A DNA stretch of 43,652 bases, from assembly GCA_023664105.1 (NCBI GenBank), contig JAMPGF010000002.1, positions 1 to 43,652 of the forward strand, read 5' to 3'. This DNA is from Butyricicoccus sp. (GTDB taxonomy: Bacteria; Bacillota; Clostridia; Oscillospirales; Oscillospiraceae). The position numbers and the translations under genes are program-made. Positions 1,145 through 25,118 of the stretch are shown here, piece by piece. How positions within the stretch are numbered: position 1 is the stretch's first letter; each line of letters opens with the position of its first letter. The notes beneath the pieces were generated by a model. The model saw nothing but the letters and a program-made list of their open reading frames with translations, ran no database searches and was not told the DNA's origin.

Positions 1145-2625
1145 TCTGCCTGACCACCTGTCATATACCGTTTCAAATAAATTCCCGTCCGGCTTTCAGC
1201 GGCTCCGCAAATGTCCTCCGGCGTTCCTGCCGCCACGATCCGTCCTCCACGGACACCGCCGCCGGGACCCATATCAATGATATAATCCGCGCTGCGAATT
1301 ACGTCCAGGTCATGCTCGATCACAATGACCGTGGCCCCGTTGTCGATCAGCCGCCGGAACACCAGCAGCAACGTCTGCACATCCAGCGGGTGCAGGCCGA
1401 TGGACGGCTCGTCCAGGACATACATCACGCCGGTGGTGCGGTTGCGCACTGCCCTGGCCAGCTGCATCCGCTGCCGTTCCCCTGTGGAGAGTGTGGATAC
1501 AGCCCGGTCCAGAGTCAGATAGCTCAGGCCCAGCTCCATCAGCCGCTTGGCGGCACTTTGGAAGGATTCGCAGATACGCTCGGCCATAGGCCGCATTTCC
1601 TCCGGCAAAGATGCCGGGACACCCGCCACCCAATCTACAAGATCGCCCAGCGTCATGGTACACGCCTGGGCCAGGGAGATTCCACGCAGCAGCGGGGCGC
1701 GGGCGGAGCCGCTAAGCCGTGTGCCGCCGCAGTCGGGGCAGACATCCTCCTTTAAGAACTTGGCCACCCGCTTCATTCCCTTTTCATCCTTCACCCTGGA
1801 CAGAGCGTTTTCCACGGTGTAGGTGGCATTGAAGTAGGTAAAATCCATATCCCCCGCCGCTCCGCTGGTTCTGTTCTGATAGATAATGTTTTTCTTGACG
1901 GCGGGGCCATGAAATACGGTATCCCGCTCCTGCTCCGTCAGTTCGCGGAAGGGCACATCGGTGCGCACGCCCATCTCGCGCGCAATATCTTTCATCAGTG
2001 ACCACATAAGCGTCTGCCACGGCGCTACCGCGCCCTCGTCGATGCTCAGAGACTCATCCGGCACCAGCGTGGATTCATCCACAGTCCGGATGATCCCGGT
2101 ACCGTCGCACCGCCTGCAAGCGCCCTGGCTGTTGAAAGCCAACTCCTCCGCACCGGGCGCAAAGAAGCGTTCGCCACAGACAGGGCAGACAAGCTCCTGC
2201 CCCGCGGCCACGCGCAAAGAGGGCTCCAGATAATGCCCGTTTGGGCAGCGGTGGCTGGCCAAGCGGGAGAACATCAGCCGCAGGCTGTTCAGGAGCTCCG
2301 TCCCTGTGCCGAAGGTACTGCGGATGCCCGGAACACCGGGCCGCTGCCGCAGGGCCAGCGCGGCGGGGACATACAACACCTCATCTACCTGCGCCCGTTC
2401 GGTCTGAGTCAGGCGACGTCTTGTATATGTGGACAAGGATTCCAAATAGCGCCGTGAACCTTCGGCATACACGACTCCCAGCGCCAGCGAGGACTTCCCG
2501 GAACCGGAGACACCGGCGATGCCTACAATTCTGTTGAGGGGAATATCCACATCAATGTTTTTCAGATTATGTACCTGTGCGCCCCGCACCTCGATATGCG
2601 CGGGTGTCCGGTTTTTTTGTTCCAT
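1141..2625 (-). CDS. UvrA-like ABC ATPase, single-module (half-length) form
   Basis: This 494-residue protein matches the first half of UvrA. It has Walker A (GVSGSGKSSLAL), the YLESLSTYTRR segment, zinc-type cysteine pairs (CPNGH...CPVC, CRRCDGTG, CPDCGGTRL), an ABC signature altered to LSTGER instead of LSGGE, and Walker B (VLDEPSIGLHP). Full UvrA is about 940 residues and drug-resistance UvrA paralogues about 750, both with two ABC modules. Here the reading frame stops exactly where module 1 normally ends. The ATG at 2625 sits 9-10 bases after a GGAGG; the ATG at 2634 is too close to it. The stop overlaps the start of the helicase fragment. A homodimer could rebuild two ATP sites, but this could equally be a truncated paralogue. 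Its 5' side abuts hairpin repeat copy A. Confidence 0.75.
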   Translation of the reverse strand: MEQKNRTPAHIEVRGAQVHNLKNIDVDIPLNRIVGIAGVSGSGKSSLALGVVYAEGSRRYLESLSTYTRRRLTQTERAQVDEVLYVPAALALRQRPGVPGIRSTFGTGTELLNSLRLMFSRLASHRCPNGHYLEPSLRVAAGQELVCPVCGERFFAPGAEELAFNSQGACRRCDGTGIIRTVDESTLVPDESLSIDEGAVAPWQTLMWSLMKDIAREMGVRTDVPFRELTEQERDTVFHGPAVKKNIIYQNRTSGAAGDMDFTYFNATYTVENALSRVKDEKGMKRVAKFLKEDVCPDCGGTRLSGSARAPLLRGISLAQACTMTLGDLVDWVAGVPASLPEEMRPMAERICESFQSAAKRLMELGLSYLTLDRAVSTLSTGERQRMQLARAVRNRTTGVMYVLDEPSIGLHPLDVQTLLLVFRRLIDNGATVIVIEHDLDVIRSADYIIDMGPGGGVRGGRIVAAGTPEDICGAAESRTGIYLKRYMTGGQAE

Positions 2626-2654
2626 TTTTATCATTCCTCCGCTGAAAGTTACTC

Positions 2655-2735
2655 ATACTAATTCTCGATTGAAAGTTCAATCGAGAATTCCGCGTGCTTC
2701 GCACGCTCGCGCCGCGCAAAGCGCGCCGCGGCGGT
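2655..2735 (+). repeat. Hairpin repeat, copy A
   Basis: Bases 2660-2689 form a perfect 14-bp hairpin (AATTCTCGATTGAA / TTCAATCGAGAATT, AG loop), preceded by ATACT and followed by CCGC. Two further short hairpins follow: GCGTGC-TTC-GCACGC (2692-2706) and CGCGC-AAA-GCGCG (2713-2725). Bases 2655-2693 recur as an inverted copy at 3139-3177 with one mismatch. A divergent copy lies at 43602-43652. The element forms the broken 3' end of the TSUP gene and sits directly upstream of the UvrA-like gene. No transposase is nearby. Confidence 0.8.
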
Positions 2736-2915
2736 CACCGCAGACCCAAGGATGTCTGAAGCCAAAGCAATGGCTGCAGCCTGGTATGCCCCTGTCTCCT
2801 CCGCAAATGAAGGACACAGCACAATGAGGATGGGCACCATCACCGTAGCCGCCGACAGCCCCGTGCCCACCCCAGCCAGCGCCGAAGCCAGAATATACCA
2901 AAACCACTCCATCAT
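2658..2915 (-). pseudogene. TSUP (TauE/SafE) family permease, N-terminal fragment
   Basis: The 85-residue frame begins MMEWFWYILASALAGVGTGL and continues as two hydrophobic segments ending ASDILGSAVTAAAR. This is typical of the first third of TauE/SafE anion exporters, which normally have about 250 residues and 7-8 membrane helices. The last roughly 20 residues (RRERAKHAEFSIELSIEN) are encoded by the hairpin repeat rather than by transporter sequence, so the gene was cut by, or recombined at, the repeat. A functional transporter is unlikely. Between its start and 3096 I see no convincing gene. Confidence 0.65.
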
Positions 2916-3096
2916 CCAGCCTGCACTCCCTGCACTTGTGTTTCTCCTATGCTATCATGAAGTAAATGGAATGTCCAGAACGGAGTGGGTCGCCATGAAG
3001 AAAAAGTGCCGCCCCGCGCTGGCGGCGGGCGCGGCAACAGACGCATTGGGTATCCGCAGAAACCGGAACTGCGGCCCGTTGCATAAACAAATGCTC

Positions 3097-3125
3097 TTTA
3101 CTTCTATCCCTCACTATATTATAAT
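3097..3125 (+). promoter_or_regulatory. Candidate promoter for the pyrophosphatase gene
   Basis: TTTACT (3097-3102), 17 bases, then a perfect TATAAT (3120-3125). Hairpin repeat copy B falls in the resulting 5' leader. A second candidate lies inside copy B: TTGAAC at 3153-3158, 17 bases, then TATTAA at the repeat edge. Confidence 0.5.
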
Positions 3126-3138
3126 GGGAGAAAACCAA

Positions 3139-3177
3139 GCGGAATTCTCAATTGAACTTTCAATCGAGAATTAGTAT
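3139..3177 (-). repeat. Hairpin repeat, copy B (inverted relative to copy A)
   Basis: This is the reverse complement of 2655-2693 with 38 of 39 bases identical. The single difference lies in one hairpin arm. With copy A it bounds a 523-bp segment as terminal inverted repeats. It occupies the leader of the downstream pyrophosphatase gene, about 20 bases before the start codon. Confidence 0.85.
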
Positions 3178-3198
3178 TAAAACGTGAGGTGATCGTTT

Positions 3199-4860
3199 AT
3201 GATTAACAGCCATTCCATCAAGGTCATCGGGCACCGCAACCCGGACACTGATTCCGTCTGCGCGGCTATCGCATACAGCCGCCTGAAGAATCTGATTGAT
3301 CCGGAACACCCATGCAAGCCCTGCCGCGCCGGCGCGCTGAATCGGGAGACGGAGTTTGTCCTGGGGCATTTCCATATCCCCGTTCCCCAGCTCTACGCCA
3401 GTGTCAGTCCTCAGATCCGGGACATCGATATCCGACAGGTGCCGGGAGTGGACGGGGAGATGAGCCTGCGCCGGGCCTGGACGACTATGCGGGATCAGAA
3501 GATCGATACTCTATGCATCGTGGACGGCGATAGGCTACAGGGTTTGCTCACGGTAAAAGATGTGGCTACGGCCAATATGGACAGGCTGGACACACATATC
3601 CTGGTCGAGGCAGAAACCAGCTACAAAAATATCGTTGAGACCCTTAACGCCGAGGTAATCGTGGGCAACATTGAGGGCAAAATGGCAGAGGGTAATGTGG
3701 TCATTGGCGCCAGCAGCTCTGAGATGTTGGAGAAATCGCTCTCCAAAGGAGACATCGTTATCCTGGGCAACCGTACCGAGGGACAGCTTACCGCCATTGA
3801 AAACGATGCAGGCTGTATCGTTGTCTGCATGGGTGCCAAGGTCTCCCGGGCCATCTGCTTGTTGGCGGAGGAAAAAGGTTGTATCGTCTTGCGTACGGAC
3901 TACAATACCTATGTCGCCGGCCAGATGATCCCGCAGGCCGCCCCCATCCGGCATTTCATGAAATCCGAGGGGCTGCTCACCTTTACGCTGGACAGCCTGG
4001 TGGAGGATGCCACCAAGATCATGGCGTCTGTACGTCACCGCTATTTTCCCGTGCTGGACGACGACGGAAAATACCTGGGCGTCATCTCCCGCCGAAACCT
4101 GATGAACCTGCACAAAAAGCAGCTCATCCTCGTTGACCACAACGAGAAGTCCCAGGCCGCTGAGGGCCTGGAGGCCGCGGAGGTACTGGAAATTATCGAT
4201 CACCACCGCATTAACGCTCTGGAGACGGACAGTCCCGTCTTTTTCCGCAACGTCCCTCTGGGCTGCACCTGCACCATCATCTACCAGATGTATCAGGAGA
4301 GCGGCATGGAGATCGATTCCGCCACCGCCGGGTTGATGCTCTCCGCCATCCTGTCTGACACGCTGATGTTCCGCAGCCCCACCAGCACTCCTACGGACCG
4401 TCGTGCCGCTCAGGCTCTGGCTGGGATTGCGGGCATAGACCTGGAGGAATATGCCAACGCTATGTTTGAAGCGGGAGGAGATGTCTCCGGCAAAACCGCC
4501 GAGGAGATCTTCAACGGCGATTATAAAATTTTCAGCTCTGGTGAAGTGCGCTTCGGCGTGGGCCAGGGGAACTACATGTCCGACAAAAACCGCAAGGCCA
4601 GTGAGGCTCTTGTAGGCCCATATTTGGAGACCGCCCTCAGCAAGCAGAGACTGGACTATGTCTTCTACATGTTCACCGATGTGCGCAGTTCTTCTACAGA
4701 GCTTCTTATGGCCGGAGAAGAGGCTGAAAAGGTGGTTGCCCGGGCCTTTGGGATAGAAATAAAAGACGGCATCGCCCAGCTCCCCGGTGTTGTCAGCCGG
4801 AAAAAGCAGATGATTCCGGCTCTCATGAGCGCCATTAAGCAGCTTACTGACGAGAGATAG
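3199..4860 (+). CDS. ppaC: Manganese-dependent inorganic pyrophosphatase with CBS and DRTGG regulatory domains
   Basis: This DHH-superfamily (family II) pyrophosphatase hydrolyses PPi to phosphate in the cytoplasm and pulls PPi-releasing reactions forward. The 553-residue length fits the regulated subtype, which inserts CBS-DRTGG-CBS domains into the catalytic core. Metal-ligand motifs are visible: GHRNPDTDS (H12, D16, D18), the DHH signature IIDHHRI near residue 333, and SDTLMFRSPTSTPTD. The insert spans about residues 75-300, and in known members it binds adenine nucleotides. The start has GAGGTGA six bases upstream. The gene appears monocistronic, ending at a strong bidirectional terminator. 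In this locus it would remove PPi made by CoA-ligase chemistry such as the enzyme at 36.9 kb, but that link is only inferred. Confidence 0.93.
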   Translation: MINSHSIKVIGHRNPDTDSVCAAIAYSRLKNLIDPEHPCKPCRAGALNRETEFVLGHFHIPVPQLYASVSPQIRDIDIRQVPGVDGEMSLRRAWTTMRDQKIDTLCIVDGDRLQGLLTVKDVATANMDRLDTHILVEAETSYKNIVETLNAEVIVGNIEGKMAEGNVVIGASSSEMLEKSLSKGDIVILGNRTEGQLTAIENDAGCIVVCMGAKVSRAICLLAEEKGCIVLRTDYNTYVAGQMIPQAAPIRHFMKSEGLLTFTLDSLVEDATKIMASVRHRYFPVLDDDGKYLGVISRRNLMNLHKKQLILVDHNEKSQAAEGLEAAEVLEIIDHHRINALETDSPVFFRNVPLGCTCTIIYQMYQESGMEIDSATAGLMLSAILSDTLMFRSPTSTPTDRRAAQALAGIAGIDLEEYANAMFEAGGDVSGKTAEEIFNGDYKIFSSGEVRFGVGQGNYMSDKNRKASEALVGPYLETALSKQRLDYVFYMFTDVRSSSTELLMAGEEAEKVVARAFGIEIKDGIAQLPGVVSRKKQMIPALMSAIKQLTDER

Positions 4861-5619: not shown

Positions 5620-6237
5620 TCACTTCATGGCCGCGCTGACCGCTCCGATCAGGAGCTCCGCCGCCACCACGCTCTCCTCGGCCAGAAAGCCTACCGCGAA
5701 ATTGTCGGAAAACTGGATCTGGGCACTGGGCGCGAACTCCTCGGCCGCCTCCCAGACGCTGAGCCGGATCCGGTAGTCCTGCACTACGGTGAACTCAAAG
5801 CCCTCGTCGCCCTGACTGATCTCCACCCCGCCCAGCTTACGGCTCGCTTCGGCAAATTTTTTCAGGTCCCGGCCGAAGGTGAACGCGCTGCGCCGGATGC
5901 ATCTGCCGTTAAAGGGCTGTATGTACACCTCGCCCCAGGGGAGCTGCCGGAAGGTTTTCCAGCGAGCTGTCGCCGGCAGGTGCTTTCCCGCCAGCAGATA
6001 ACGCAGAAGGAAGGTCTGCGCCGGGAGCTTGCCAAGCGCGAACGCGTCGGGACTGTCGCCGGAGATCGTGTAGTCCGGCCAGGTAATAGCATAGGTTTGA
6101 TTTAGAAAGCGAACGGTAAACGCATTCCCGTCAAAAGGCAGCTCCAGGCGTCTGACCACATCTTCCGGGTCCATCTGCTGAAAGCTTTGCAGATAGTGCT
6201 CGAAAGGGACCTCTTCTTTATTGTTTTTTATCTCCAT
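5620..6237 (-). CDS. DUF3786 domain protein linked to corrinoid activation
   Basis: This 205-residue soluble protein resembles the DUF3786 family, which I recall lying beside acsV-type corrinoid activators in acetogens; its function is unknown to me. Visible landmarks are FEHYLQSFQQMDPEDVVRR near the N-terminus, YAITWPDYTISG and a central LLRYLLAG segment. The frame could extend to 6276, but the ATG at 6237 has CAGGAG seven bases upstream and lies four bases after the acsV stop, so I chose it. There is no signal peptide or membrane segment. Its position between acsV and the FNT gene suggests a role in CoFeSP maintenance or activation (inference). Confidence 0.72.
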   Translation of the reverse strand: MEIKNNKEEVPFEHYLQSFQQMDPEDVVRRLELPFDGNAFTVRFLNQTYAITWPDYTISGDSPDAFALGKLPAQTFLLRYLLAGKHLPATARWKTFRQLPWGEVYIQPFNGRCIRRSAFTFGRDLKKFAEASRKLGGVEISQGDEGFEFTVVQDYRIRLSVWEAAEEFAPSAQIQFSDNFAVGFLAEESVVAAELLIGAVSAAMK

Positions 6238-6241
6238 AGCG

Positions 6242-8164
6242 TTACTCCTGAAAGCTGGACGGGAAACGCCCGGCATCCGTGTGCGGCAGGAAGCAGGATG
6301 CCACGAACCGGTCCATGTACCCCGGATGGGTGGAAAGCTCCATATATGTCATGTTGCCCGCGATCTCGGCGACCTTCCGCCGGGCCTCATCGGACAGCAC
6401 CATGGCGTAGGCGCCGGACAGCGAGGAATTGCCGATATAGGAGTATTTCTCCAAGTCCACATCCGGGAACATACCGATCCGCACGGCGTTTTTCATATTG
6501 ATCCCGCTGCCGATACCGCCCGCCACATAGACGTGCTCGATCATATCCGTGTCAAAGTCCAGCGAGGCCAGCATCGTGTCTATAGCGGAGAAGATCGCGC
6601 CCTTGGCCCGGATGAACGACTCAATGTCCACCTCGGTGATGGCGATCTCCCGCCCGGTCTCGGACTCGGGCACAAAGGCCAGAATATACCGCCCCATGCC
6701 GTGTTTGTCACGGGCAATACGCTTGCCCTCCCGGATGAATTTGCCGTTGGCGCCCAGAATGGATGTCCGATAGAGCTCGGCGATAACATCAATGATACCG
6801 CTGCCGCACAGCCCCACCGGCTTTTGTTTTCCCACAACAGTGAGCACAGGCTCCATGGTCTCTCTGTCAATGGTGACGGCCTCGATGGCCCCGTCGGTGG
6901 CGCGCATGCCGCAGGAGATATCGCCGCCCTCAAAGGCGGGGCCGGCGCTGCATGCACAGCACATCAAAAATTCGCTGTTGCCGAAGACGATCTCGCCGTT
7001 GGTGCCCAAGTCGATGAACAGCGAGAACTCCTCTTTGTTCCAGATCAGGCTGGCAAAGGTGCCGGCCGTGATATCGCCGCCCACATAGGAGCCCACATTT
7101 GGCGCAAGGCACACCCCGGCCCAGGGATGGACGGGCAGGGACAGGTCGGCTGCACGCAGGTCGTTGTAGTGGAAGAAGCTGGGGATGTACGGCTCCATAC
7201 GCACGGGATCTGCATCCACCGCCAGCAGGAGATGGTTCATCGTGGTGTTTGACGCAATACACATCCGCACCACATGGTCGGGCGCGACTTTGGCCGTTTT
7301 ACACAGGAGCCGGATCAGCGGGAACAATGTCTCGTCCAGGATCGCCTTTTGCAGGCGCCCGCGTCCGCCTGTCTTCGTCTGCTCCACGATGCGGTTGATG
7401 ACGTCCGCGCCATAGCGGATCTGGCCGTTCCCGGCCGAGGCTTTGGAAAGCAGCGCACCCGTTTCCAGATCGGTCAGGACAGCGGAAACGGTAGTCGTGC
7501 CGATGTCGATGGCGATGGCGCACGGCGGCGTCCGATCCGCAGCCGGTGAAACAGCATAAATCAGGAAGCCGTCTTCCTTCCGCTCGCCGATAACGCGGAC
7601 ATGGAACGCGCTGTCCCTCAGCGCCGCGGCAAGGTTTCGCATTGCCGGAAGGCTGATCTCGCAGCGGCTGACGCCGGTCTTCTTTATCAGCTCCCGTTCC
7701 AGGCGCTCGTTGTCGGGCATGGTGTCGTCCAGGGTGGGTTCATCAAGCTGGATGTCCACGCTGACAAACCCGTTGGAAAAGGCTATACCGGCGTCCCGGA
7801 TCTGGGCCTGAAGCGCTTCAAAAATTGCCAGCTCTTCGCCCGTGGACAGGTCCGCCGTTTTCATCCTCTGCTGATAGGCCAGAGCAATATCCGGCACCAG
7901 CACCGTCGCGTCGCCCGCCACCCTGCTGCAGCAGCTCAGCCGCCAGCCGGCATCATAGTCCTCTTTGGATATATGGGCCGTCTGAAGCGAATCCAGCTCG
8001 CCCTCCAGCAGCTTCACCCGGCATTTCCCGCAGGAACCGTTTCCCGAACACGGCGCGTCGATCGCCACGTTGGAGCTTCTGGCAGCTTCCAGCAGATTGT
8101 CCCCCTCATTGGCGGAAACAACGACCGGTTCCCCGTTTTCTATTTGAAATGTGATCTCGAACAC
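6242..8164 (-). CDS. acsV: AcsV (RACo-type): reductive activator of the corrinoid iron-sulfur protein
   Basis: The protein uses ATP to drive one-electron reduction of inactive Co(II) CoFeSP back to Co(I). The N-terminal ~100 residues form a plant-type [2Fe-2S] ferredoxin with ligands C39, C45, C48 and C78 (C-x5-C-x2-C-x29-C). A middle linker follows, then a large C-terminal ASKHA-fold ATPase (DUF4445) with phosphate-binding loops AIDIGTTTVSAVLTD and FIDLGTNGEIV. The length of 640 residues matches RACo (about 630-640). An N-terminal [2Fe-2S] domain separates it from RamA-type activators, which carry C-terminal [4Fe-4S] clusters. The start is GTG, with GAGG upstream. It lies downstream of acsB in the operon, after two GC-rich intercistronic hairpins. 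Confidence 0.92.
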   Translation of the reverse strand: MFEITFQIENGEPVVVSANEGDNLLEAARSSNVAIDAPCSGNGSCGKCRVKLLEGELDSLQTAHISKEDYDAGWRLSCCSRVAGDATVLVPDIALAYQQRMKTADLSTGEELAIFEALQAQIRDAGIAFSNGFVSVDIQLDEPTLDDTMPDNERLERELIKKTGVSRCEISLPAMRNLAAALRDSAFHVRVIGERKEDGFLIYAVSPAADRTPPCAIAIDIGTTTVSAVLTDLETGALLSKASAGNGQIRYGADVINRIVEQTKTGGRGRLQKAILDETLFPLIRLLCKTAKVAPDHVVRMCIASNTTMNHLLLAVDADPVRMEPYIPSFFHYNDLRAADLSLPVHPWAGVCLAPNVGSYVGGDITAGTFASLIWNKEEFSLFIDLGTNGEIVFGNSEFLMCCACSAGPAFEGGDISCGMRATDGAIEAVTIDRETMEPVLTVVGKQKPVGLCGSGIIDVIAELYRTSILGANGKFIREGKRIARDKHGMGRYILAFVPESETGREIAITEVDIESFIRAKGAIFSAIDTMLASLDFDTDMIEHVYVAGGIGSGINMKNAVRIGMFPDVDLEKYSYIGNSSLSGAYAMVLSDEARRKVAEIAGNMTYMELSTHPGYMDRFVASCFLPHTDAGRFPSSFQE

Positions 8165-8301: not shown

Positions 8302-10431
8302 TTACATCAGCGGATCCATGGCCAGAACCGGGTGGTTCTTCTCGGTCAGGAATTCCATCAGCTGATCGCATTCGGTGCAGATGGTCTCGTCGGCAATGTA
8401 ATCGGTGAAGTTGTCTATGCCATACAGCTCCTTCGCGGTCTTGTTGAGCTTTTCCGCGACGTCATCCTTCAGCTCCTTCGGCATCCAGACGATACGCTCA
8501 ATGCCGCCCTCGGCAAAGATGAACTTCTTCGAGGAAATGAAGTGACGGCCGTGGCCCATATAGCCCGGGGTCTGAACGCCGCCGCCGGTGCAGGAGGCCA
8601 GCTCGCCGAAGGTCATGCCGGCGGGCGTCATGCCGGCATACTCGCGGTTGACAACGATAAAGCCGTTGGACGCGGGCTCAATGCCGCAAATGCACTCAAA
8701 GCAGCCGCAGGAGGTCATGGGATCCTCCAGGATGGAATACAGCGTGACGGAATCCACCGCGCCGTGGGTCGCTTCATGCACCATCTTGTCGACGGTCTCA
8801 TAGCGGCCGGTGCGCTCATCGTTGCAACCTTCCTTCACGATCGGCTGGCAGGGGCCGTTCTGGTTGAGCTCATAGGTCGCCTTGGCGTCGAGCCAGGACA
8901 CGGCGCCGCACAGGCCCAGGCGCTCCGGGGTCACCACGCAGCAGTGGGCCGGGGCGAAGGACTGGCAGAGGATGCACGTATAGAAGCGGTCCACCGCCTC
9001 GTCAGTCATGGAGTCAAGACGCTGGTCGCGCTGGTTGTAGCGCGGCATTGCTTCCTTCTCCAGGATCTCCTGCACCTTTGCCTTGTCAGTGACCAGAGTG
9101 ACCTGGCACTTATCCACGACGGCGTCAAATTCGTCCATAATCATATGGTAGAGGACTTCCGCAAAATGGGTCAGGCGCAGTCCCTTGTCATATGCGTCGT
9201 TGGAAATGCGGATGCGGATCTGGTTTCTCTGGCCGGTGTGCATGACACCTTCCATATAGTTGAACCATGCGTGGATCTTGCGCTCGATGACGGACTCGAA
9301 GTCGGGCTGCATCTTCTTCCCGGCCACTTCCACGTATGTAGCCAGAGCGAACTGCTGCTCTCCGGAGTCGATGTCGTCGCCGACGATGGTGATCTTGTGA
9401 TCCTCCACCCCAGCCATGTCGCGCATGGAAACCAGCTCGCAGGTCGGGTTCTTGGCTGACCAGAACTCGCACTTCATATCGCTCTTGCGGATGATCTCGC
9501 CCTCGAACGCGGCGGCAAACGCCACGGGAATCGGCAGCTCCTTGACCTTGATTTTGATGTTGCGCAGCTCCAGAGACTTCTTGACTGTCTCGGCGTGGTC
9601 GCACACGGACTCCAACGCGCCGGGGACCTGATTCTCTCCCAGGTCGACATCGACGATCACAGGGAAGCCCAGCGCGATGGCCCCCGCTCCGGCGGATACG
9701 ACCACCGGGTCGATCGCTCCGAAGGTGTTGACAAACGCGGGAACGCGGTTCTTGGTGTAGTCCAGCAGGCCGGGCAGATCGCCGCCCTTGAGGCTGCCGA
9801 AAATCAGCGCCGCGCGGACCGCGATGGTGACGACATGGATAACGCTCGTCACGTCATGGCCCAGGGGCACCACGCGGAAGTCCAAGCCCATCTTCACGCC
9901 GCACTCGGCGCACTGCTCGATCACGTCGCCCACCATACATGTCAGAAGGCCCTTGGACTGGTAATCCTTGACGATGGCCGCGACGTCGGCGGCATTGTCC
10001 GCCTTGCCCAGCACGACGGCCACGCCGGGGATATCTCCGGTGACCAGGGGAACGCCCAGGGAGCGGATGATGGGATCGGGGACAAAGCCGATGCCTGACT
10101 CGTCGGCGTAGGGGTCAGCCCCGTCGACATACTTCAGGCCCTCAAGGATCTCCGCGCCGACCGCCGTGGCAAGGCCCGCGTTGAGCGCCTGGCCCAAGTC
10201 CTCCTGGTTTGTGATCAAGCTCTTAAGTACGCCCACACAGGCGGGCAGGTCGCCCAGGGTCTTGACCTTCACGCCGGTAGCGGCGTAAATTGTCGGGAAG
10301 AAATACGCGGTATCGGGGAAAGCAATCTCTTTGTCAGCGCCGTACTTGGCAATGGCATCATTTACCGCGCCCTCAGTCAGGCCGGCAACCGCGTTGGAAC
10401 CGCCGTAGATAAGATCAGTCAAAACGCTCAT
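8302..10431 (-). CDS. acsB: Acetyl-CoA synthase catalytic subunit (ACS, CODH/ACS beta/alpha)
   Basis: ACS condenses a methyl group from the corrinoid protein, CO and CoA into acetyl-CoA at the Ni-Ni-[4Fe-4S] A-cluster. All cluster ligands are present: C486, C489, C498 and C508 for the cubane, and the C575-G-C577 motif for the distal nickel. These sit exactly 20 positions below the Moorella numbering as I recall it (C506/509/518/528, C595/597), with identical spacing. At 709 residues it is a full bacterial-type ACS including the N-terminal CODH-contacting region, but about 20 residues shorter at the extreme N-terminus. The ATG is preceded by TAGGAGG. It lies between the acsC-acsE fusion and acsV. 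The usual partner gene, acsA/cooS, is absent from the window. Confidence 0.96.
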   Translation of the reverse strand: MSVLTDLIYGGSNAVAGLTEGAVNDAIAKYGADKEIAFPDTAYFFPTIYAATGVKVKTLGDLPACVGVLKSLITNQEDLGQALNAGLATAVGAEILEGLKYVDGADPYADESGIGFVPDPIIRSLGVPLVTGDIPGVAVVLGKADNAADVAAIVKDYQSKGLLTCMVGDVIEQCAECGVKMGLDFRVVPLGHDVTSVIHVVTIAVRAALIFGSLKGGDLPGLLDYTKNRVPAFVNTFGAIDPVVVSAGAGAIALGFPVIVDVDLGENQVPGALESVCDHAETVKKSLELRNIKIKVKELPIPVAFAAAFEGEIIRKSDMKCEFWSAKNPTCELVSMRDMAGVEDHKITIVGDDIDSGEQQFALATYVEVAGKKMQPDFESVIERKIHAWFNYMEGVMHTGQRNQIRIRISNDAYDKGLRLTHFAEVLYHMIMDEFDAVVDKCQVTLVTDKAKVQEILEKEAMPRYNQRDQRLDSMTDEAVDRFYTCILCQSFAPAHCCVVTPERLGLCGAVSWLDAKATYELNQNGPCQPIVKEGCNDERTGRYETVDKMVHEATHGAVDSVTLYSILEDPMTSCGCFECICGIEPASNGFIVVNREYAGMTPAGMTFGELASCTGGGVQTPGYMGHGRHFISSKKFIFAEGGIERIVWMPKELKDDVAEKLNKTAKELYGIDNFTDYIADETICTECDQLMEFLTEKNHPVLAMDPLM

Positions 10432-10542: not shown

Positions 10543-12807
10543 TTAAAACTCCAGATACGAATCGGAGTACAGCTCGTTGTTCTTGAAGATATCGCAGGAC
10601 TTGATGGTCTCCATCAGGCGGCGGTCATTGGGGTTGACAATAGCGGAGGTCAGGCCCTGCATCATTGCCATGGCCACAAGGGCGGAGTCCATAATGGGGC
10701 GGAGCGCCTTCGGCGCGCCGTTGGAGTTGTTGGACAGGCCGCCGGTGGAGTTCAGGCCCTCGTCGGCGAACATGCGGATGGCGCCCAGAACATCCATCTG
10801 CTTGTCCTGCATGCCCTTGACCACCAGGAACAGCGGGTCGAACCACATGTCCTTGGCGTCCATGCCCAGGCTCAGGCCGTGCTCAAGCATGTTGTGGCAG
10901 TGCATCATGCGCTCCTCATTGTCCTTGGCGATGCCGTCAGCCGAGCACAGGGCAACGACGATGGCGTCATTGGCCGCGGCCAGGTCGATGTAGCTCAGGC
11001 GGGAGCCGGCGTCTGCGGAGTTGACGATAGGCTTGCCGTTGGTGCGGTTGTAAACTCGTATGCCCGCCTCGATGGCCCGCTTGTTGGCGGTGTCCAGCGC
11101 CAAGGGCACGTTGTTGAAGTTCTCCTGGAGCAGCTTGACCGCCCAGGTCATCAGCTCGGGTCCGTTGGATTCCGCGGGCCCGATGTTCACGTCCAGATAG
11201 GTCGCGCCGGCGCGGATCTGCTCGGCCGCGCGCTTGAGGATGGGTTCGGGGTCCATCTTGTCCATTGCCTCGCGGATCACCGGGGAGATGCAGTGGATGC
11301 GCTCGCCGATGACAACGAACTTCTTCGACTCCGGATCGCGCTGGCGGTATGTAACTCCCATGTCCATGACCTTGATCTCGGGAATGACGAGCTTGTCGAA
11401 ATCAATGGGAGCGTCCGGGGAGACCTCGGGCTTTTTCGCCTCGACGGGCTTCTTGGACGCGGCGACGGCGGCGGCGGCCTTCTCATGCTCGCCGTCCTTG
11501 AGGAAGCGGACGATCTCAACCGCCTCGCGGGTGCCCACGACCACATTCCAGTCAGGCAGCTTTTCCTGTATCTCGCCCTTCATCACGGCCACCTTGCCGG
11601 GGATCACCAGGGTGCGGGAGTTGATTTTCTCCGCGATCTTGTACTCGTCAAAGAACTTCTTGACCGAGCCGGCGGAGAATTTTCCCGCGGCCCACGCCGT
11701 CAGGACAGACATGCCGGAGGCGTCGGTTATCAGCAGGTTTACGGGGACCTTGGAGCGCTCGGCCTCGCCGGAGACGAGGAAGTAGGTCAGCGCGAAGTCC
11801 ACCGTGAGCAGGCACGCGTCGTCCGGCGTCGCGCCGTTGAGCGGGTAAATGCCCGGCTCAACCTTCATGGGCTTCTGCGGGTCGGTGTAGATGTTCTGGC
11901 GCAGGCCGTGCAGCGGCAGGGACTCCGCGTAGCCCAGCTTCTCCATCACCAGTATGGAGCCGTACTTGACCGTGAACAGGGCCGCCAGCGCCGTCTGGAG
12001 GTGCGTGTCTCCCCCGGCCAGCCTGGTCAGGTCCACCAGGGACGGATAGCCCAGCGTGCGCACGCTGTCCTTGATGGCCGAGCGGCGGGAAATGACCGCG
12101 TTTGCGAAGGTCTCCTTTATCGAGCCAGCCGTAACGTCGATGATGAGGTTCTTGTTTCCGGCCTTTTCCAGCTTCTCCACCGTGTCATATATCTCCTGAA
12201 TGCTGGCGCCGCCAACGCCCAGGATGGCCTTATCTCCAACAGCCGCGTTCATCTGCTCCCAGTTGGAGGCGTCCGCGCCGTTGATGATCAGATCCTTGCC
12301 GACATCAAGAGCTGCCTTTGCCGCCTCGGGGTCCTTGGTATCCACGATCACGCCGCGGCCGGTGGTGGAGGCCTTCTTCACCGCGCCCGCCAGCTTGCCG
12401 GCGCCCTTGCCCTCGTCCCGGACATACACAAACTCCACATATTCCCGCTCGCCAATGCGCTCATAGTCCACCTTCTGAATATCGGCCAGCTTCGCGTCCA
12501 GCTCGCCGTCGTCCATGGCGGTGCCGACGCTGACGGCGTAGAGGTTGCGGGAAACAAACGTCTTATCATGACGGAACAGAACCGTCTCGCCGCCCAGCTT
12601 GTGCCCGGCGACCTCAAGGGACTTCATCGGAGGCGCCGTCGCGTCGGACAGCAGGGCAATGGCCTCATCAGACATGTACGGGCACTTTGTTATAGGGAGA
12701 GCGCCCTGTGCGACCTTCATGCAGAACGCCATGCAGGTGGGTACGCCGCACTCCTTGCAGTTCTTCTTCGGAGACAGCTTGAAAATATCCAGACCTTTTA
12801 CTGCCAT
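10543..12807 (-). CDS. acsC/acsE: Fusion of CoFeSP large subunit (AcsC) with methyl-THF:CoFeSP methyltransferase (AcsE)
   Basis: One 754-residue frame joins two normally separate Wood-Ljungdahl proteins. Residues 1 to about 440 are AcsC: an N-terminal [4Fe-4S] motif C17-x2-C20-x4-C25-x16-C42, a TIM-barrel body and a B12-binding C-terminal part (LLITDASGMSVLTAW). Residues about 445-496 form an Ala/Lys/Pro-rich linker. Residues 497-754 are AcsE, a DHPS-like pterin-binding barrel. Its conserved segments are FVVIGERIH, TYLDVNIGP, LALDTANK, WFDPLFLVVKG and GLSNNSNGAP; its 258 residues compare with about 262 in Moorella. There is no frameshift or internal stop. The ATG at 12807 has AAGGAGG upstream; the longer frame to 12966 overlaps acsD and lacks support. 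The fusion places methyl donor enzyme and corrinoid acceptor on one chain. Confidence 0.93.
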   Translation of the reverse strand: MAVKGLDIFKLSPKKNCKECGVPTCMAFCMKVAQGALPITKCPYMSDEAIALLSDATAPPMKSLEVAGHKLGGETVLFRHDKTFVSRNLYAVSVGTAMDDGELDAKLADIQKVDYERIGEREYVEFVYVRDEGKGAGKLAGAVKKASTTGRGVIVDTKDPEAAKAALDVGKDLIINGADASNWEQMNAAVGDKAILGVGGASIQEIYDTVEKLEKAGNKNLIIDVTAGSIKETFANAVISRRSAIKDSVRTLGYPSLVDLTRLAGGDTHLQTALAALFTVKYGSILVMEKLGYAESLPLHGLRQNIYTDPQKPMKVEPGIYPLNGATPDDACLLTVDFALTYFLVSGEAERSKVPVNLLITDASGMSVLTAWAAGKFSAGSVKKFFDEYKIAEKINSRTLVIPGKVAVMKGEIQEKLPDWNVVVGTREAVEIVRFLKDGEHEKAAAAVAASKKPVEAKKPEVSPDAPIDFDKLVIPEIKVMDMGVTYRQRDPESKKFVVIGERIHCISPVIREAMDKMDPEPILKRAAEQIRAGATYLDVNIGPAESNGPELMTWAVKLLQENFNNVPLALDTANKRAIEAGIRVYNRTNGKPIVNSADAGSRLSYIDLAAANDAIVVALCSADGIAKDNEERMMHCHNMLEHGLSLGMDAKDMWFDPLFLVVKGMQDKQMDVLGAIRMFADEGLNSTGGLSNNSNGAPKALRPIMDSALVAMAMMQGLTSAIVNPNDRRLMETIKSCDIFKNNELYSDSYLEF

Positions 12808-12824
12808 TGTGTGTTCCTCCTTAC

Positions 12825-13769
12825 TCAGACCAGTTCGTCGATCATCCGGGCAATCGCCCCAATGGCGTCCGGATGGCGCATGATGACAGCGTCGGAGCCA
12901 CCGGCCAGGCATGCCGCGGCCGTTGCGATTTCCATCTCGATGCCGCGCTCTTCCGCGTCGCCCCACTCGGGCATTTCCGCTTCCGGCATGATCGATTCCT
13001 TCACGCCCCAGGTCTCCGGCGAGACCGGCGTCATAATCGGCATCTGGAGCTGCGCGTCGCCCTGTCCCAGGGCGGCCAGCTTGATGCGCTCAAGCGTGGA
13101 AGCGAGGTACTCAAAGCCGTAACCCGCCGCGGCGGAGCCCGCCTGCATCACGATGGATTCGGGATTGACGCCCAGCTGGGTCATCACGGTGTTGAGCTGC
13201 TTGGCGAGGTTGATGTCCACCGCGGATTCAGCGCCGACCTTCTGGCCGTAGGCCAAGGCCGCCGAAGCGCCCACAGTCTTGTAGTTTTCCTCCCTGGCCG
13301 AGAGCACGAGTATGTTCTTTCCGCTCAGCTTTTCGGAGATCTTCGTAAACAGCTCCGCGTCCTTCTCGATATCCTTGCAGCCCATAATAACGAGCGGCAG
13401 CTCGATCTTCGCGGCGACTGCCTCGGCCAGAGCCGCGCACTCCTCCACGGATTTGTTCGCGCCGTTCGGATCGGCGCCGTCAAGGTGCAGCACGATAAAC
13501 GACACGCCCGGGATGCTCTGAGCCCGAACGGCCATCTCCTCAACGCTGCCGCAGCCGTCATAAAAAGCCTTCAGCTTCGGCTGCGCGTACACCTCCAGCG
13601 CCCCGTCGGTGATCTCCGCGCCGATCTTCGGCGCGTTTTCGATGGGCGCGTCGAAGCTGTAAAACGGCAGCACGTTGTTTCCGCCGATCCGGACCGCCTT
13701 GTCCCCGGTTCCGAGAACGACTGTGTTGGTTTTGGCGTTGAACGCCTGTGTCTTCGGTGCAAATGGCAT
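12825..13769 (-). CDS. acsD: Corrinoid iron-sulfur protein small subunit (AcsD)
   Basis: AcsD pairs with AcsC as the heterodimeric CoFeSP that carries the methyl group from AcsE to ACS. It forms a TIM barrel supporting the cobamide. The 314-residue length matches the family (about 310-325). Recognisable segments are LGTGDKAVRIGG near the N-terminus, SFIVLHLDGADPN, PLVIMGCKDIEKD, SIVMQAGSAAAGYGFEY and the C-terminal DAVIMRHPDAIGAI. A strong GGGGGG ribosome binding site precedes the ATG. The gene lies 17 bases before the acsC-acsE start and downstream of cooC, so stoichiometric expression with AcsC is likely. Confidence 0.95.
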   Translation of the reverse strand: MPFAPKTQAFNAKTNTVVLGTGDKAVRIGGNNVLPFYSFDAPIENAPKIGAEITDGALEVYAQPKLKAFYDGCGSVEEMAVRAQSIPGVSFIVLHLDGADPNGANKSVEECAALAEAVAAKIELPLVIMGCKDIEKDAELFTKISEKLSGKNILVLSAREENYKTVGASAALAYGQKVGAESAVDINLAKQLNTVMTQLGVNPESIVMQAGSAAAGYGFEYLASTLERIKLAALGQGDAQLQMPIMTPVSPETWGVKESIMPEAEMPEWGDAEERGIEMEIATAAACLAGGSDAVIMRHPDAIGAIARMIDELV

Positions 13770-13795: not shown

Positions 13796-14563
13796 TTACA
13801 ATTCTAGTTCTTTTATAATACCGGCCAGCGCCTTCTTTATAGGCGCGGAATCCGGAACATGGGCGCTTGGTTTTCCTTCGCAGTCAGCCTCATACACCGC
13901 CTGGTCCTGGGGCAGCACCCCGGCAAGCTCCAAGCCGTGCTTTTCGATCTCCTCCGCAACGCCGGAACTGAGCTTTCCCTCCGGCGCGCGGTTGACGATC
14001 AGCTTCATCCGTCCGGGGTTAAGGCCCAGGTCTCTGGCCATTTCCGCTATCCGTCCCACCGCCTGAATGCCGCGGCGTGAACAGTCGGAGACCAGCAGCA
14101 GCGTGTCAATGTGCGGAAGCGTGCCACGGGCGATATACTCCATGCCGGCCTCGTTGTCGATGACCATATAGCGGTAATTCCCCGCGTACTTTTCCAGCTG
14201 AGTCTGGAGGATACCGTTGACGAAGCAGTAACAGCCCTTTCCCTGGGTGCGGCCCATCACCAGCATGTCGAAGTCGTCCTCCTCGATCAGCGCCGAGCCG
14301 AAGCGGAATTCGGCATAGTCCGCCTTTGTCATGCCGGCGGGGACCGTGTCGCCGCGCTTTTCCGCCTGCGCCATCTCCTCGCGTACATCGCCCAGAGTCG
14401 TTTCCACCTCAACGCCCAGGACCTCGTTCAGATTGGAATTGGCGTCGGCATCGACCACAAGTATCGGCGCTTTCCCGCTCCGGCACAGATAGTCCACAAG
14501 CATGCCGCATGTGGTGGTTTTCCCGACGCCGCCTTTTCCGGCGATCGCAATGGTATGGGTCAC
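13796..14563 (-). CDS. cooC: CooC-type nickel-insertion ATPase for CODH/ACS maturation
   Basis: This MinD/SIMIBI-class ATPase delivers nickel during maturation of carbon monoxide dehydrogenase or acetyl-CoA synthase. It shows a deviant Walker A (GKGGVGKTT, residues 9-17), a VVDADANSN switch and the family-defining C111-x-C113 metal-binding pair in GKGCYCFVNG. These cysteines bind Ni or Zn at the dimer interface in characterised CooC. At 255 residues the length is typical. The start is GTG at 14563, positioned by GGAGG seven bases upstream. It sits between the small nickel-associated genes and acsD. Because no CODH subunit is encoded here, its client in this operon may be AcsB (AcsF-like role); that assignment is inferred. 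Confidence 0.92.
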   Translation of the reverse strand: MTHTIAIAGKGGVGKTTTCGMLVDYLCRSGKAPILVVDADANSNLNEVLGVEVETTLGDVREEMAQAEKRGDTVPAGMTKADYAEFRFGSALIEEDDFDMLVMGRTQGKGCYCFVNGILQTQLEKYAGNYRYMVIDNEAGMEYIARGTLPHIDTLLLVSDCSRRGIQAVGRIAEMARDLGLNPGRMKLIVNRAPEGKLSSGVAEEIEKHGLELAGVLPQDQAVYEADCEGKPSAHVPDSAPIKKALAGIIKELEL

Positions 14564-19458: not shown

Positions 19459-21288
19459 ATGACACAACAGGAAGCCATAGACTACATCGAAAGCTATACC
19501 TGGAGCACTACCCGGCTTGGCTTGGAGCGCACGCGGGAGCTGCTCCGTAAGCTGGGCGATCCCCAGAAAGAATTGAAATTTATCCATGTGGCCGGCAGCA
19601 ACGGCAAGGGCAGCACCTGCGCCATGCTCGACGCAATCCTCCGCCGGGCGGGGTACCGGGCGGGGCTGTACACCTCCCCTTACATTCAGGACTTTTGCGA
19701 GCGGATGCAGGTTGACGGAGAGAATATCCCCGGCCATACCCTTGCCGACATCACGGAGCGTGTCCGTCTCGCGGCCGACGCTATGGAGGACCACCCCAGC
19801 CAGTTTGAGCTGGTGACCGCAATCGCCATGGAATATTTCCGCGAGCAGCGATGTGACATCGTCGTGCTGGAGGTAGGAATGGGCGGCTCGCTCGACAGCA
19901 CCAATGTTATCGACGCGCCTGAGGTCGCCGTCATCACCAACATCGGCCTGGAACACACGGAATATCTCGGAGACACGCTTGAAAAGATAGCGGCCACCAA
20001 GGCCGGTATCATCAAGCCCGGCTGCTCCTGCGTCTGCTATGACGGCGCGCCGGAGGTCATCTCCGTCATACGCTCGGTCTGCGAGCAGAACAGTGTTCCC
20101 CTTACCTGCGCGGGGAACGCTCCGGCAAAAGCGGTCAGTCAGGATCTTAACGGACAGGTTTTTTCCTGGCGGGGCGCGGAATACCGGCTCTCCCTGCTTG
20201 GATCACATCAAATCGGCAATGCCTCGGTGGTTCTGGAGACAGTGGAAGCCCTTCGGGGACGGGGCTGGAATATTCCGAAGGAGGCCGTCAGAGACGGTCT
20301 GCGGGAGGTAAAGTGGCCTGCCCGTCTTGAGATACTCAACCGGAAGCCGCTGTTTATTCTCGACGGCGGACACAACCCCCAGTGCGCCGAGGCACTGGTC
20401 AGCAGCATCAGCCAGCTTCTCCCAGGCAAGCGGGTCGTATTTCTCACCGGCGTTCTGGCCGACAAGGATTATCCTCAAATTATGGAGCTGATGATGCCGT
20501 GCGCGCAGGAATTTGTGTGCCTGACGCCCGTCAGCGACCGGGCCCTGAGCGCGGACGCGCTGGCGGACTGCCTGACGAAACACGGCGCGAAAGCGAGCGC
20601 CTGTACCGACATTCCCGACGGCATACGCATGGCCCTTACCGCCGCCGGAGAGGACGGCGCGGTTATCGCCTTCGGCTCGCTTTATCTTGCCGGGGCGGTG
20701 CGGACGGCTTTCGCGCCCGCCCTCCGCCAGTGGCTTCGCAAAGAAAAAATCCAGGCGCGGGACAGCCTGTCGCCCGAGGCCCGGGTGGAGAAATCGGGGC
20801 AGATTGTACAAAGGATCATTCACTCGCGCGAATTTCAAAACTCCAAAACGGTCATGCTATACCGCGCCGCGCGCGCCGAGGTGAGCCTCAATGGGCTCGA
20901 AAAGTCTCCGGAGGCGCTGGAAAAGCGCCTCGTCTATCCCCGGTGCGTAAGCAAAACAGAAATGGCGGCCTTACTGCCCCGCGGAGAGGCTTCCTGGGAA
21001 ACCGGCTATGCCAGCATAGAAGAGCCGATCCCGGAAAAATCCGAGGCGATCGCACCGGAAGAAATCGATCTGGTGCTGTGCCCCTGCACAGTCTTTGACG
21101 AGGGCTGCAACCGTATGGGCATGGGCGCGGGCTTTTATGACCGTTTTCTGGAACGCTGTCCAAATGCGCGAATAATAGCGGTCGCCTTCGAGGCGCAAAA
21201 GACGGACACTGTTCCGTCGGAGCCGTGGGACAGGCCCATGGACGCGGTTTTTACCGAGGACGCGGCATACCGGCGGGAAGAAAAATGA
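19459..21288 (+). CDS. folC: Fusion of folylpolyglutamate/dihydrofolate synthase (FolC) with 5-formyl-THF cyclo-ligase
   Basis: A single 609-residue frame holds two folate enzymes. Residues 1 to about 420 are FolC: P-loop GSNGKGST at 46-53, LYTSPYIQDFCERM, EVGMGGSLDSTNV, NIGLEHTEYLG, and LDGGHNPQCAEAL in the C-terminal domain. It adds glutamates to THF. Residues about 425-609 are a 5-formyltetrahydrofolate cyclo-ligase: a basic ARDSLSPEARVEKS start, LVYPRC, and the MGMGAGFYDRFLE signature with CPCTVFDEGCNRMG before it. This half recycles the dead-end 5-formyl-THF to methenyl-THF with ATP. GAGAGGG precedes the ATG. No internal ribosome site or stop is evident. It is the last gene of the folate operon and may inherit riboswitch control via folT. 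Confidence 0.92.
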   Translation: MTQQEAIDYIESYTWSTTRLGLERTRELLRKLGDPQKELKFIHVAGSNGKGSTCAMLDAILRRAGYRAGLYTSPYIQDFCERMQVDGENIPGHTLADITERVRLAADAMEDHPSQFELVTAIAMEYFREQRCDIVVLEVGMGGSLDSTNVIDAPEVAVITNIGLEHTEYLGDTLEKIAATKAGIIKPGCSCVCYDGAPEVISVIRSVCEQNSVPLTCAGNAPAKAVSQDLNGQVFSWRGAEYRLSLLGSHQIGNASVVLETVEALRGRGWNIPKEAVRDGLREVKWPARLEILNRKPLFILDGGHNPQCAEALVSSISQLLPGKRVVFLTGVLADKDYPQIMELMMPCAQEFVCLTPVSDRALSADALADCLTKHGAKASACTDIPDGIRMALTAAGEDGAVIAFGSLYLAGAVRTAFAPALRQWLRKEKIQARDSLSPEARVEKSGQIVQRIIHSREFQNSKTVMLYRAARAEVSLNGLEKSPEALEKRLVYPRCVSKTEMAALLPRGEASWETGYASIEEPIPEKSEAIAPEEIDLVLCPCTVFDEGCNRMGMGAGFYDRFLERCPNARIIAVAFEAQKTDTVPSEPWDRPMDAVFTEDAAYRREEK

Positions 21289-21574: not shown

Positions 21575-22456
21575 TTATCCAATCCCGGCCTGCTCCAGCA
21601 GCGCGGGGACTTTGGCCTCCCAGCCCAATGCCATAATATGCACGCCCTGGCAGTAGGGCCGACACTCCCGGATGACCCGGGCGGCGATCTCCACGCCGGT
21701 GATACCCGCCTTGGCGCGCTCCTTGTCGGCTGCCAGCTCGTTGAGCATTTCGTCGGGCACATGGACGCCGGCGACGTTGTTGTTCATGTACCGGCACATG
21801 GCCGCGCCCTTCGGAATGATGACGCCCAGCTGCACCGGCTTTCCGAACTGCTTTGCCCGCTCCATAAAGGCGATGAACTTCTCCGGCTCGAACACGGCCT
21901 GGGTCTGGAAGTAGTCGCATCCGGCCTTCACCTTCCGCTCCATTTTCGCCAGCTGCGCGTCTACGGAGTCGCTGCACGGGGACACCACCGCGCCCTTGGC
22001 AAACTTCGGCGGCTCGCCCACCAGCTCCTTCCCGCCCAAGTCCACGCCGGACTCCAGCTGGCACACGGTGTGCAGCAGGGAGACGGAGTCCAGGTCGAAC
22101 ACGGGCTTGGCGCCGGGATGGTCGCCCAGGCTGGTATGGTCGCCCGTGAGGCACAGGATATTTTCAATGCCGAACATGGCCGCGCTCAGAAGGTCGGACT
22201 GGAGCGCGATCCTGTTCCGGTCCCGGCAGGTCGTCTGATAGATCGGCGTCAGGCCAGAGTCCAGCAGCGCCTTGCAGGTCGCCAGGCTGCCCAGACGCAT
22301 GACGGAGGACTGGTTATCAGTGACATTGACCGCCGTGATGCCGCTGAGATATTCTTTGGCCTCTTCTATCAGGCCGTCGATATGTATGCCCTTGGGAGGA
22401 CCGACCTCCGCTGTTACCACGAATTCGCCACGATCGAATAATTCCGTAATCTTCAC
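21575..22456 (-). CDS. metF: Methylenetetrahydrofolate reductase catalytic subunit
   Basis: MetF is a FAD-dependent TIM-barrel enzyme reducing methylene-THF to methyl-THF, the last reduction of the methyl branch. The 293 residues begin with FVVTAEVGPPKGIH, carrying the conserved catalytic glutamate. AVNVTDNQSSVMR and LCLTGDHTSLGDHPGAKPVF follow, then VKAGCDYFQTQAVFEPEKF, all family hallmarks. The start is GTG, with GAGGTGA seven bases upstream. It follows metV and the MetV-RnfC2 fusion in one minus-strand operon, so it probably takes electrons through those Fe-S proteins instead of acting alone with NADH. Confidence 0.95.
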   Translation of the reverse strand: MKITELFDRGEFVVTAEVGPPKGIHIDGLIEEAKEYLSGITAVNVTDNQSSVMRLGSLATCKALLDSGLTPIYQTTCRDRNRIALQSDLLSAAMFGIENILCLTGDHTSLGDHPGAKPVFDLDSVSLLHTVCQLESGVDLGGKELVGEPPKFAKGAVVSPCSDSVDAQLAKMERKVKAGCDYFQTQAVFEPEKFIAFMERAKQFGKPVQLGVIIPKGAAMCRYMNNNVAGVHVPDEMLNELAADKERAKAGITGVEIAARVIRECRPYCQGVHIMALGWEAKVPALLEQAGIG

Positions 22457-22485
22457 TGTCTTTTCACCTCATCATCCAGATTTTC

Positions 22486-23106
22486 TCAGTGGGATTTGTT
22501 CGCGTCGACCGCGAAATTGCGCAGCTGCGTCGGGCACCTGAGCGCGTCAAGACGTCCAACGGCCTCCAGCCGGCGGTATATGCGCTCCCAGCCGCATTCC
22601 ATATTCTGATCTACCTCACATCTGCCGTTCCTGGCTCCGCCGCACTGGCCGTTGACCAGGCTTTTGGAGCAGGCGGTGATCGGACAGATGCCGCCGGTGA
22701 GGCTCAGGTAGCACTCGCCGCACTGGCCGCAGTCGTACTCCAGCGGCGTCACGCCCTGAAATCCGGGCAGCCGGACGGTGTCGCAGCCGGCATAGACGGC
22801 CTTGCCGTCCAGCATGTCGGATACCGTCTGCACGCCCACGCCACAGGAGAGCACCAGAACAGCGTCGGCCTCGTCGATCATGGCGCGGCGCCTTTCCAGG
22901 CGCAGCGGCAGGTTTTCCGTGTTGCATATATAATCCGTCGTGAGCACGCCGGTGACCCGGTCCGCGTCCAGAAGCTCGCGCGTCAGTTCATCTGCCTCCG
23001 CCTCGGGGAACGAAATCTCTTTGCACCCGTGACACTGTATGACAAAAACCTTTTCAGGCAGCATGGACAGGATATCTTCCCTGGCTTTCAGCTTCGTTAT
23101 AAGCAT
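22486..23106 (-). CDS. metV: MetV, zinc/iron-sulfur partner of MetF
   Basis: This 206-residue protein is the MetV-type (MTHFR C-terminal domain) partner required by acetogen MetF enzymes. It is cysteine rich: CHGCKEI near the N-terminus, VLSCGVGVQTVSDML, CGQCGECYLSLTGGICPITACSKSLVNGQCGG and CEVDQNMECGWERI. These are arranged as in known MetV, which carries [4Fe-4S] clusters or zinc. It starts one base after the stop of the MetV-RnfC2 fusion and shares its SD (AAGGGGG) with that gene's end. A second MetV domain lies in the fusion, with matching motifs in the same order, so this locus has a MetV duplication. Confidence 0.92.
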   Translation of the reverse strand: MLITKLKAREDILSMLPEKVFVIQCHGCKEISFPEAEADELTRELLDADRVTGVLTTDYICNTENLPLRLERRRAMIDEADAVLVLSCGVGVQTVSDMLDGKAVYAGCDTVRLPGFQGVTPLEYDCGQCGECYLSLTGGICPITACSKSLVNGQCGGARNGRCEVDQNMECGWERIYRRLEAVGRLDALRCPTQLRNFAVDANKSH

Positions 23107-23107
23107 G

Positions 23108-25072: not shown

Positions 25073-25118
25073 AGCCTCACCCTCCTTTATAATGAGCCGT
25101 TTTTGATTATACAAAACA

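Follow-up and report, generated by a model that had tools for sequence, protein, structure and literature searches.

A gene fusion joins AcsC and AcsE in one chain in a lineage of gut Oscillospiraceae

The window analysed here (the whole stretch of 43,652 nucleotides, contig JAMPGF010000002.1 of the Butyricicoccus sp. assembly GCA_023664105.1) carries on its minus strand, in gene order, cooC, acsD, acsCE, acsB, acsV and a small conserved open reading frame (ORF). The acsCE frame runs uninterrupted from an ATG at 12807 to a stop codon at 10543-10545 and encodes a product of 754 residues (81.6 kDa). The initial annotation had given the coordinates 10543-12807 rightly and left out the strand; the gene lies on the minus strand, and the plus-strand reading of the same interval is an unrelated frame. 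The features of the locus are as follows (all on the minus strand):

13796..14563, minus: cooC-like ATPase (CbiA/ParA-type NTPase; conserved position in the order cooC-acsD-acsCE)
12825..13769, minus: acsD, small CoFeSP subunit, 17 bases upstream of acsCE (NF040759, 465 bits, cut-off 430)
12816..12823, minus: Shine-Dalgarno taaggagg, 5' of acsCE (from the sequence)
10543..12807, minus: acsCE fusion gene (open frame with ATG and ribosome site; same frame in ~97 loci)
11491..12807, minus: AcsC (CoFeSP large subunit) part, ending in a cobalamin-binding Rossmann domain (NF003195; fold match 9fzy_F)
12676..12771, minus: [4Fe-4S] domain motif, residues 13-44, with Cys17, Cys20, Cys25 and Cys42 (PF04060)
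11326..11490, minus: linker, residues 440-494 (pLDDT pattern of the model, linker alignment, third-position substitution bias)
11490-11455, minus: linker part 1, predicted helix, residues 440-451 (model)
11454-11401, minus: linker part 2, probably flexible Ala/Glu/Lys/Pro stretch, residues 452-469 (model)
11400-11326, minus: linker part 3, conserved strap, confidently modelled, residues 470-494 (model)
10546..11325, minus: AcsE (methyl-THF:CoFeSP methyltransferase) part, residues 495-754 (NF040758; 2yci fold match)
8302..10431, minus: acsB, acetyl-CoA synthase (NF040764, 999 bits, cut-off 800)
6242..8164, minus: acsV, corrinoid activation protein (NF040756, 928 bits, cut-off 800)
5620..6276, minus: small conserved ORF after acsV, 218 aa, without an NCBIfam match (neighbour kept in fused and split loci)

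Both parts of the chain are nearly full length and score above their family cut-offs, in support of the initial annotation, which had described a complete AcsC and a complete AcsE on one polypeptide. The AcsC part (residues 1-439; NF003195, 465 bits against a cut-off of 306) combines a CdhD-type barrel with a C-terminal cobalamin Rossmann domain, and the AcsE part (residues 495-754; NF040758, 463 bits against 370) is a pterin-binding TIM barrel; the Pfam domains are FeS at 13-44, CdhD at 70-435 and Pterin_bind at 518-725. In fold comparisons of the structure model, the AcsC part matched 9fzy_F (Z 36.3, 432 residues, rmsd 6.0) and 4djd_C (Z 34.0, 433 residues, rmsd 5.8), while the AcsE part matched 2yci (Z 33.8, rmsd 1.8, 255 residues) and, likewise over nearly its full length, 1f6y. 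The usual form of AcsE is a stand-alone chain of ~262 residues, which is an arrangement rather than a defining activity; here it lies within a chain of 754 residues. The PDB sequence matches of AcsCE are CoFeSP and MeTr chains, which are separate there. Across 27 fused proteins, the four cysteines of the N-terminal CX2CX4CX16C [4Fe-4S] motif in the AcsC part are invariant, as are Thr370, which we take to be the likely cap-helix Thr, and Asp572, Asn596, Asp657 and Asn693 of the AcsE part, presumably the expected catalytic residues judging from Moorella MeTr. Conservation along the chain is highest in AcsE, which differs at 12 of 260 residues from locus L161, as against 57 of 437 for AcsC.

The structure model was built from a 137-row alignment in which split proteins were included (mean pLDDT 89, pTM 0.55) and supersedes an earlier, poor model from 27 sequences (pLDDT 71); at a pTM of 0.55 the relative placement of its domains is unreliable. 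Model confidence is lower at about residues 451-470 and high again at 471-500, and the freely moving part of the linker is likely to be about 18 residues long. Counted from the last AcsC motif to the AcsE motif FVxIGER, the linker measures 58.7 +/- 3.4 residues over 70 distinct linkers, with 65 of the 70 at 57-62 residues and four shorter ones at 41-55. Its start is variable and rich in Ala/Glu/Lys, while the last ~24 residues are conserved, the strap beside AcsE retaining Tyr at -10 in 99% and Val at -12 in 96% of the distinct linkers. Changes among near relatives of the window fall mostly at the third codon position (6/2/22 at positions 1/2/3 between the window and L161), and the linker is therefore coding. 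A stop codon or frameshift in the linker, against which the initial annotation had staked its claim, was looked for and none was found, the frame being open over all 754 residues. The acsCE fusion is confirmed as real and as a single chain in sequence.

Apart from the acs cluster, the window carries fhs, fchA, folD and folC on its plus strand; beyond them, on the minus strand, come an RnfC2-like gene, metV and metF. The order cooC-acsD-acsCE is kept across loci, usually with acsB-acsV next. The absence of a separate acsE, which had been pointed out for the window, extends to the assembly (2.02 Mb, 90% complete), in which the fusion alone passes the AcsE family cut-off; the other pterin-binding matches are MetH on contig C88 and, on contig C121, a corrinoid methyltransferase of 30% identity. 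As for formate from CO2, two molybdopterin oxidoreductases are present in the genome, both below the Fdh cut-off. The CODH gene is cut across two contig ends (G000:C49 and G000:C132; L033, L034), and its linkage to the acs cluster is not visible.

The same chain was found in ~97 loci with 70 distinct linkers, all within one GTDB family; the loci represent fewer species, and some loci of the two collections are from the same genome. In the family sample of 400 genomes, 112 had a match at 1e-40 and 37, belonging to 12 genera by table count, had the full-length fusion, while in further genomes of the family the fusion spans the junction and is cut by contig ends. None of the 37 full-length fused genomes had a second AcsE at E 1e-40, and the other acsC/acsE carriers checked in the family have separate genes, usually adjacent. 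Sampling at the level of the phylum (398 genomes), order (245) and class (391) brought no further fused lineage; outside the family, the AcsE matches above the cut-off lie in frames of 262-282 residues. In a scan of named genomes, the fusion was present in Candidatus Faecousia, Ca. Avoscillospira, Ca. Limimonas, Pseudoflavonifractor sp. MSJ-30 (a RefSeq genome) and many Oscillospiraceae MAGs, including all five loci named Candidatus Faecousia or Faecousia sp., whereas Blautia, Fusicatenibacter and other Lachnospiraceae have split genes. The label Lachnospiraceae on three MAGs may be wrong, as these carry the fusion and cluster with the lineage of the window. Most fused genomes are MAGs. The fusion is no one-off; it is fixed in a lineage that spans about a dozen genera of gut Oscillospiraceae.

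Certain apparent additions to this set were rejected. Open frames of 700-1000 residues reported for split genomes proved on direct ORF check to be acsC and acsE separated by stop codons, nearly all of these pairs having an acsE with its own ATG and ribosome site; similarly, four class-level loci (L245-L248) with one match over residues 1-753 contain in-frame stops and a separate acsE start, and are not fused. Individual loci also depart from the common pattern. In L102 (G181), a fused acsCE has its frame broken near residue 346, by assembly error or decay, and in L081 (G008; ~2460-3320) a split pair has ~830 bases between acsC and acsE with no clear gene there. The sample includes two more genomes from the genus of the window, G001 (87% complete) and G002 (71% complete); neither gave an AcsC match, and the pathway may be patchy even inside this genus.

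With regard to origin, the AcsE tree (99 rows) separates all 43 fused rows from the others at a branch with support of 100. In the AcsC tree, the split gene of L087 (G096) groups with three fused rows, which requires two changes; nevertheless, an AcsC tree with the fused rows held together is not rejected (AU p 0.079), nor is an AcsE tree with L087 beside those three fused rows (p 0.112). Fission in L087 fits the AcsC tree, but not the best AcsE tree. A single fusion is the simplest reading, given the one origin on the AcsE tree and the conserved strap shared by all linkers, while a later split, recombination of AcsC or a second fusion is possible. The fusion would have arisen once, in an ancestor within one family of gut Oscillospiraceae, from adjacent acsC and acsE genes through loss of the acsC stop codon, loss of the acsE start codon and gain of the linker.

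The reading that we prefer, with a probability of roughly 0.8, is that both halves of AcsCE work, one as CoFeSP large subunit and the other as methyltetrahydrofolate:CoFeSP methyltransferase, the latter tethered to the mobile cobalamin domain. Since the cobalamin domain ends AcsC, AcsE would be tied to the moving carrier itself. A CoFeSP large subunit is expected to hold base-off corrinoid and to pair with AcsD, and AcsE to methylate Co(I) from methyl-THF. The AcsE barrel would bind methyl-THF; the methyl group would pass, as methyl-cobalt, to the C-terminal cobalamin domain on which AcsE is directly tethered, and this domain, partnered by AcsD, would then swing to acetyl-CoA synthase (AcsB). 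The tether would consist of perhaps 18 flexible residues between the C-terminal helix of AcsC and the strap ahead of the AcsE barrel, a length at which donor and acceptor could stay in reach while the cobalamin domain would still be free to leave. Judging from the sequence, both activities are probably intact; AcsE would presumably still dimerise, and tethering may speed or couple methyl transfer. A kinetic benefit through a raised local concentration and a 1:1 ratio, as the initial annotation had suggested, is conceivable. A more ambitious proposal, which we put forward tentatively, is that AcsCE parallels MetH as its natural counterpart of CFeSP type, with donor and carrier permanently assembled by a helix-flexible-strap tether, so that transfer would occur in the chain or in an (AcsCE-AcsD)2 dimer instead of by transient docking, and that gut Oscillospiraceae fixed it in adapting to low methyl-THF flux in the Wood-Ljungdahl pathway.

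It is possible, albeit somewhat doubtful, that the fusion is neutral or acts at the level of expression: the chain would work and the tether would have no kinetic role, fixing instead a 1:1 ratio and co-translation, with linker length kept by descent. This alternative shares the catalytic part of the preferred explanation, and the confidences in the two overlap. A single fusion needs little, as in most split relatives the two genes already lie side by side in the same direction; all fused rows come from one event on the AcsE tree, and linker length is not absolute, as the four short linkers demonstrate. However, length is held at 57-62 residues in most linkers while the middle drifts, the Tyr and Val of the strap are kept at 96-99%, and no clear reversal of the fusion is seen despite the many genera.

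Production of two polypeptides, by an internal translation start or by proteolysis of the linker, is unlikely. The linker centre is of low complexity and lower model confidence and could be protease-sensitive, and ATG codons occur in the window 14 and 12 residues ahead of AcsE; nevertheless, both of these ATGs are without a ribosome site, an ATG with a ribosome site precedes AcsE in only 9 of the 97 fused loci as against 71 of the 77 split loci, and the third-position bias extends across the linker. The start codon and ribosome site of acsE itself are lost in fused loci, and the chain is expected from its sequence to stay uncleaved. Still less probable is that the AcsE part is an inactive structural leftover while another methyltransferase performs the transfer: the genome does encode the 30%-identical corrinoid methyltransferase (G000:C121), but no part of the chain is better conserved than AcsE, and its expected catalytic residues are all invariant. 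An artefact of assembly or sequencing that joined two genes has a negligible probability, since, even though the draft assembly behind the window is fragmented (187 contigs), the same unbroken frame occurs in the ~97 loci, which derive from independent assemblies and hosts and include one in a RefSeq genome without a MAG label; this excludes chance and misassembly.

To our knowledge, AcsC and AcsE are separate proteins in all studied acetogens. AcsCE has in common with the acetogen proteins (4DJD, CFeSP-MeTr; 2YCL/2YCI of C. hydrogenoformans; 9FZY, CoFeSP with CODH/ACS) the families, folds and, as judged from sequence, ligand and catalytic residues, and the genes have in common the acsD, acsB and acsV neighbours; the acetogen pair forms two chains, while AcsCE is one chain with a linker of ~55 residues. 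Both halves belong to known families by profile, fold and residues and the joining alone is new, AcsCE being a lineage-specific form of a known pair. Among other systems, CmuA of chloromethane degraders also unites a methyltransferase and a corrinoid-binding domain in one natural chain, but these belong to other methyltransferase and corrinoid families and the substrate is another. MetH resembles AcsCE in combining, within a single flexible chain, a folate barrel with a cobalamin Rossmann domain and in the same first half-reaction, and the Foldseek matches of AcsCE to MetH span both barrels. Nevertheless, AcsCE is ruled out as a MetH: it scores 82.5 bits on the full-length profile TIGR02082 (cut-off 1010.85), the DxHxxG His-on cobalamin motif is absent from all 754 residues, no match to the homocysteine-barrel family was found in the chain, the domain order (cobalamin-linker-folate) is the reverse of that of MetH, and the cobalamin domain is CFeSP-type, which differs in fold from that of MetH (reviewed in PMC13331322). 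The engineered MT-CP of Desulfitobacterium hafniense (PMC9930637) likewise places a cobalamin methyltransferase and a corrinoid protein on one active chain, but is artificial, of the O-demethylase type, built with glycine linkers and from other protein families. Such engineered fusions were comparable to the separate proteins and better in some aspects, with the shortest linker performing best (PMC9930637); their activity shows that tethering is compatible with methyl transfer.

The arrangement had been put forward as undescribed, and no description of an AcsC-AcsE fusion was found in the open-access literature, which was the scope of the search (subscription journals were mostly outside it). 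In a 2024 eggNOG-based survey with 667 CODH/ACS genomes, acsE was undetected in 78% of those human-gut genomes that belong to the Oscillospirales, among which Faecousia is the largest genus, and acsCDE were absent from the cooS context in seven of eight Oscillospirales genera (PMC11338639). The AcsC and AcsE profiles score almost equally on AcsCE, with AcsC first (465 against 463 bits); as the AcsC model scores just above that of AcsE, a best-hit annotator would probably report AcsC only, and the fusion plausibly accounts for the acsE gap in that survey. In a further study, acsE was among six required genes by which 449 acsB-bearing rumen genomes were reduced to 69 (PMC12449052). Surveys that require acsE as a gene of its own may therefore miss acetogens. 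Furthermore, AcsCE provides a natural system in which a tethered and an untethered methyl-transfer pair can be compared directly, including close relatives with two genes.

Apart from acsCE, the window holds a second one-carbon fusion on the plus strand (19459-21288), in which FolC (residues 22-416) and 5-formyltetrahydrofolate cyclo-ligase (424-600) form a protein of 609 residues. On the minus strand (21575-25114), metF and metV accompany the gene for an RnfC2-like protein of 668 aa, the N-terminal part of which matches the MetF C-terminal domain family DUF5981; this protein is probably the usual RnfC2 that belongs to the methylene-THF reductase of acetogens.
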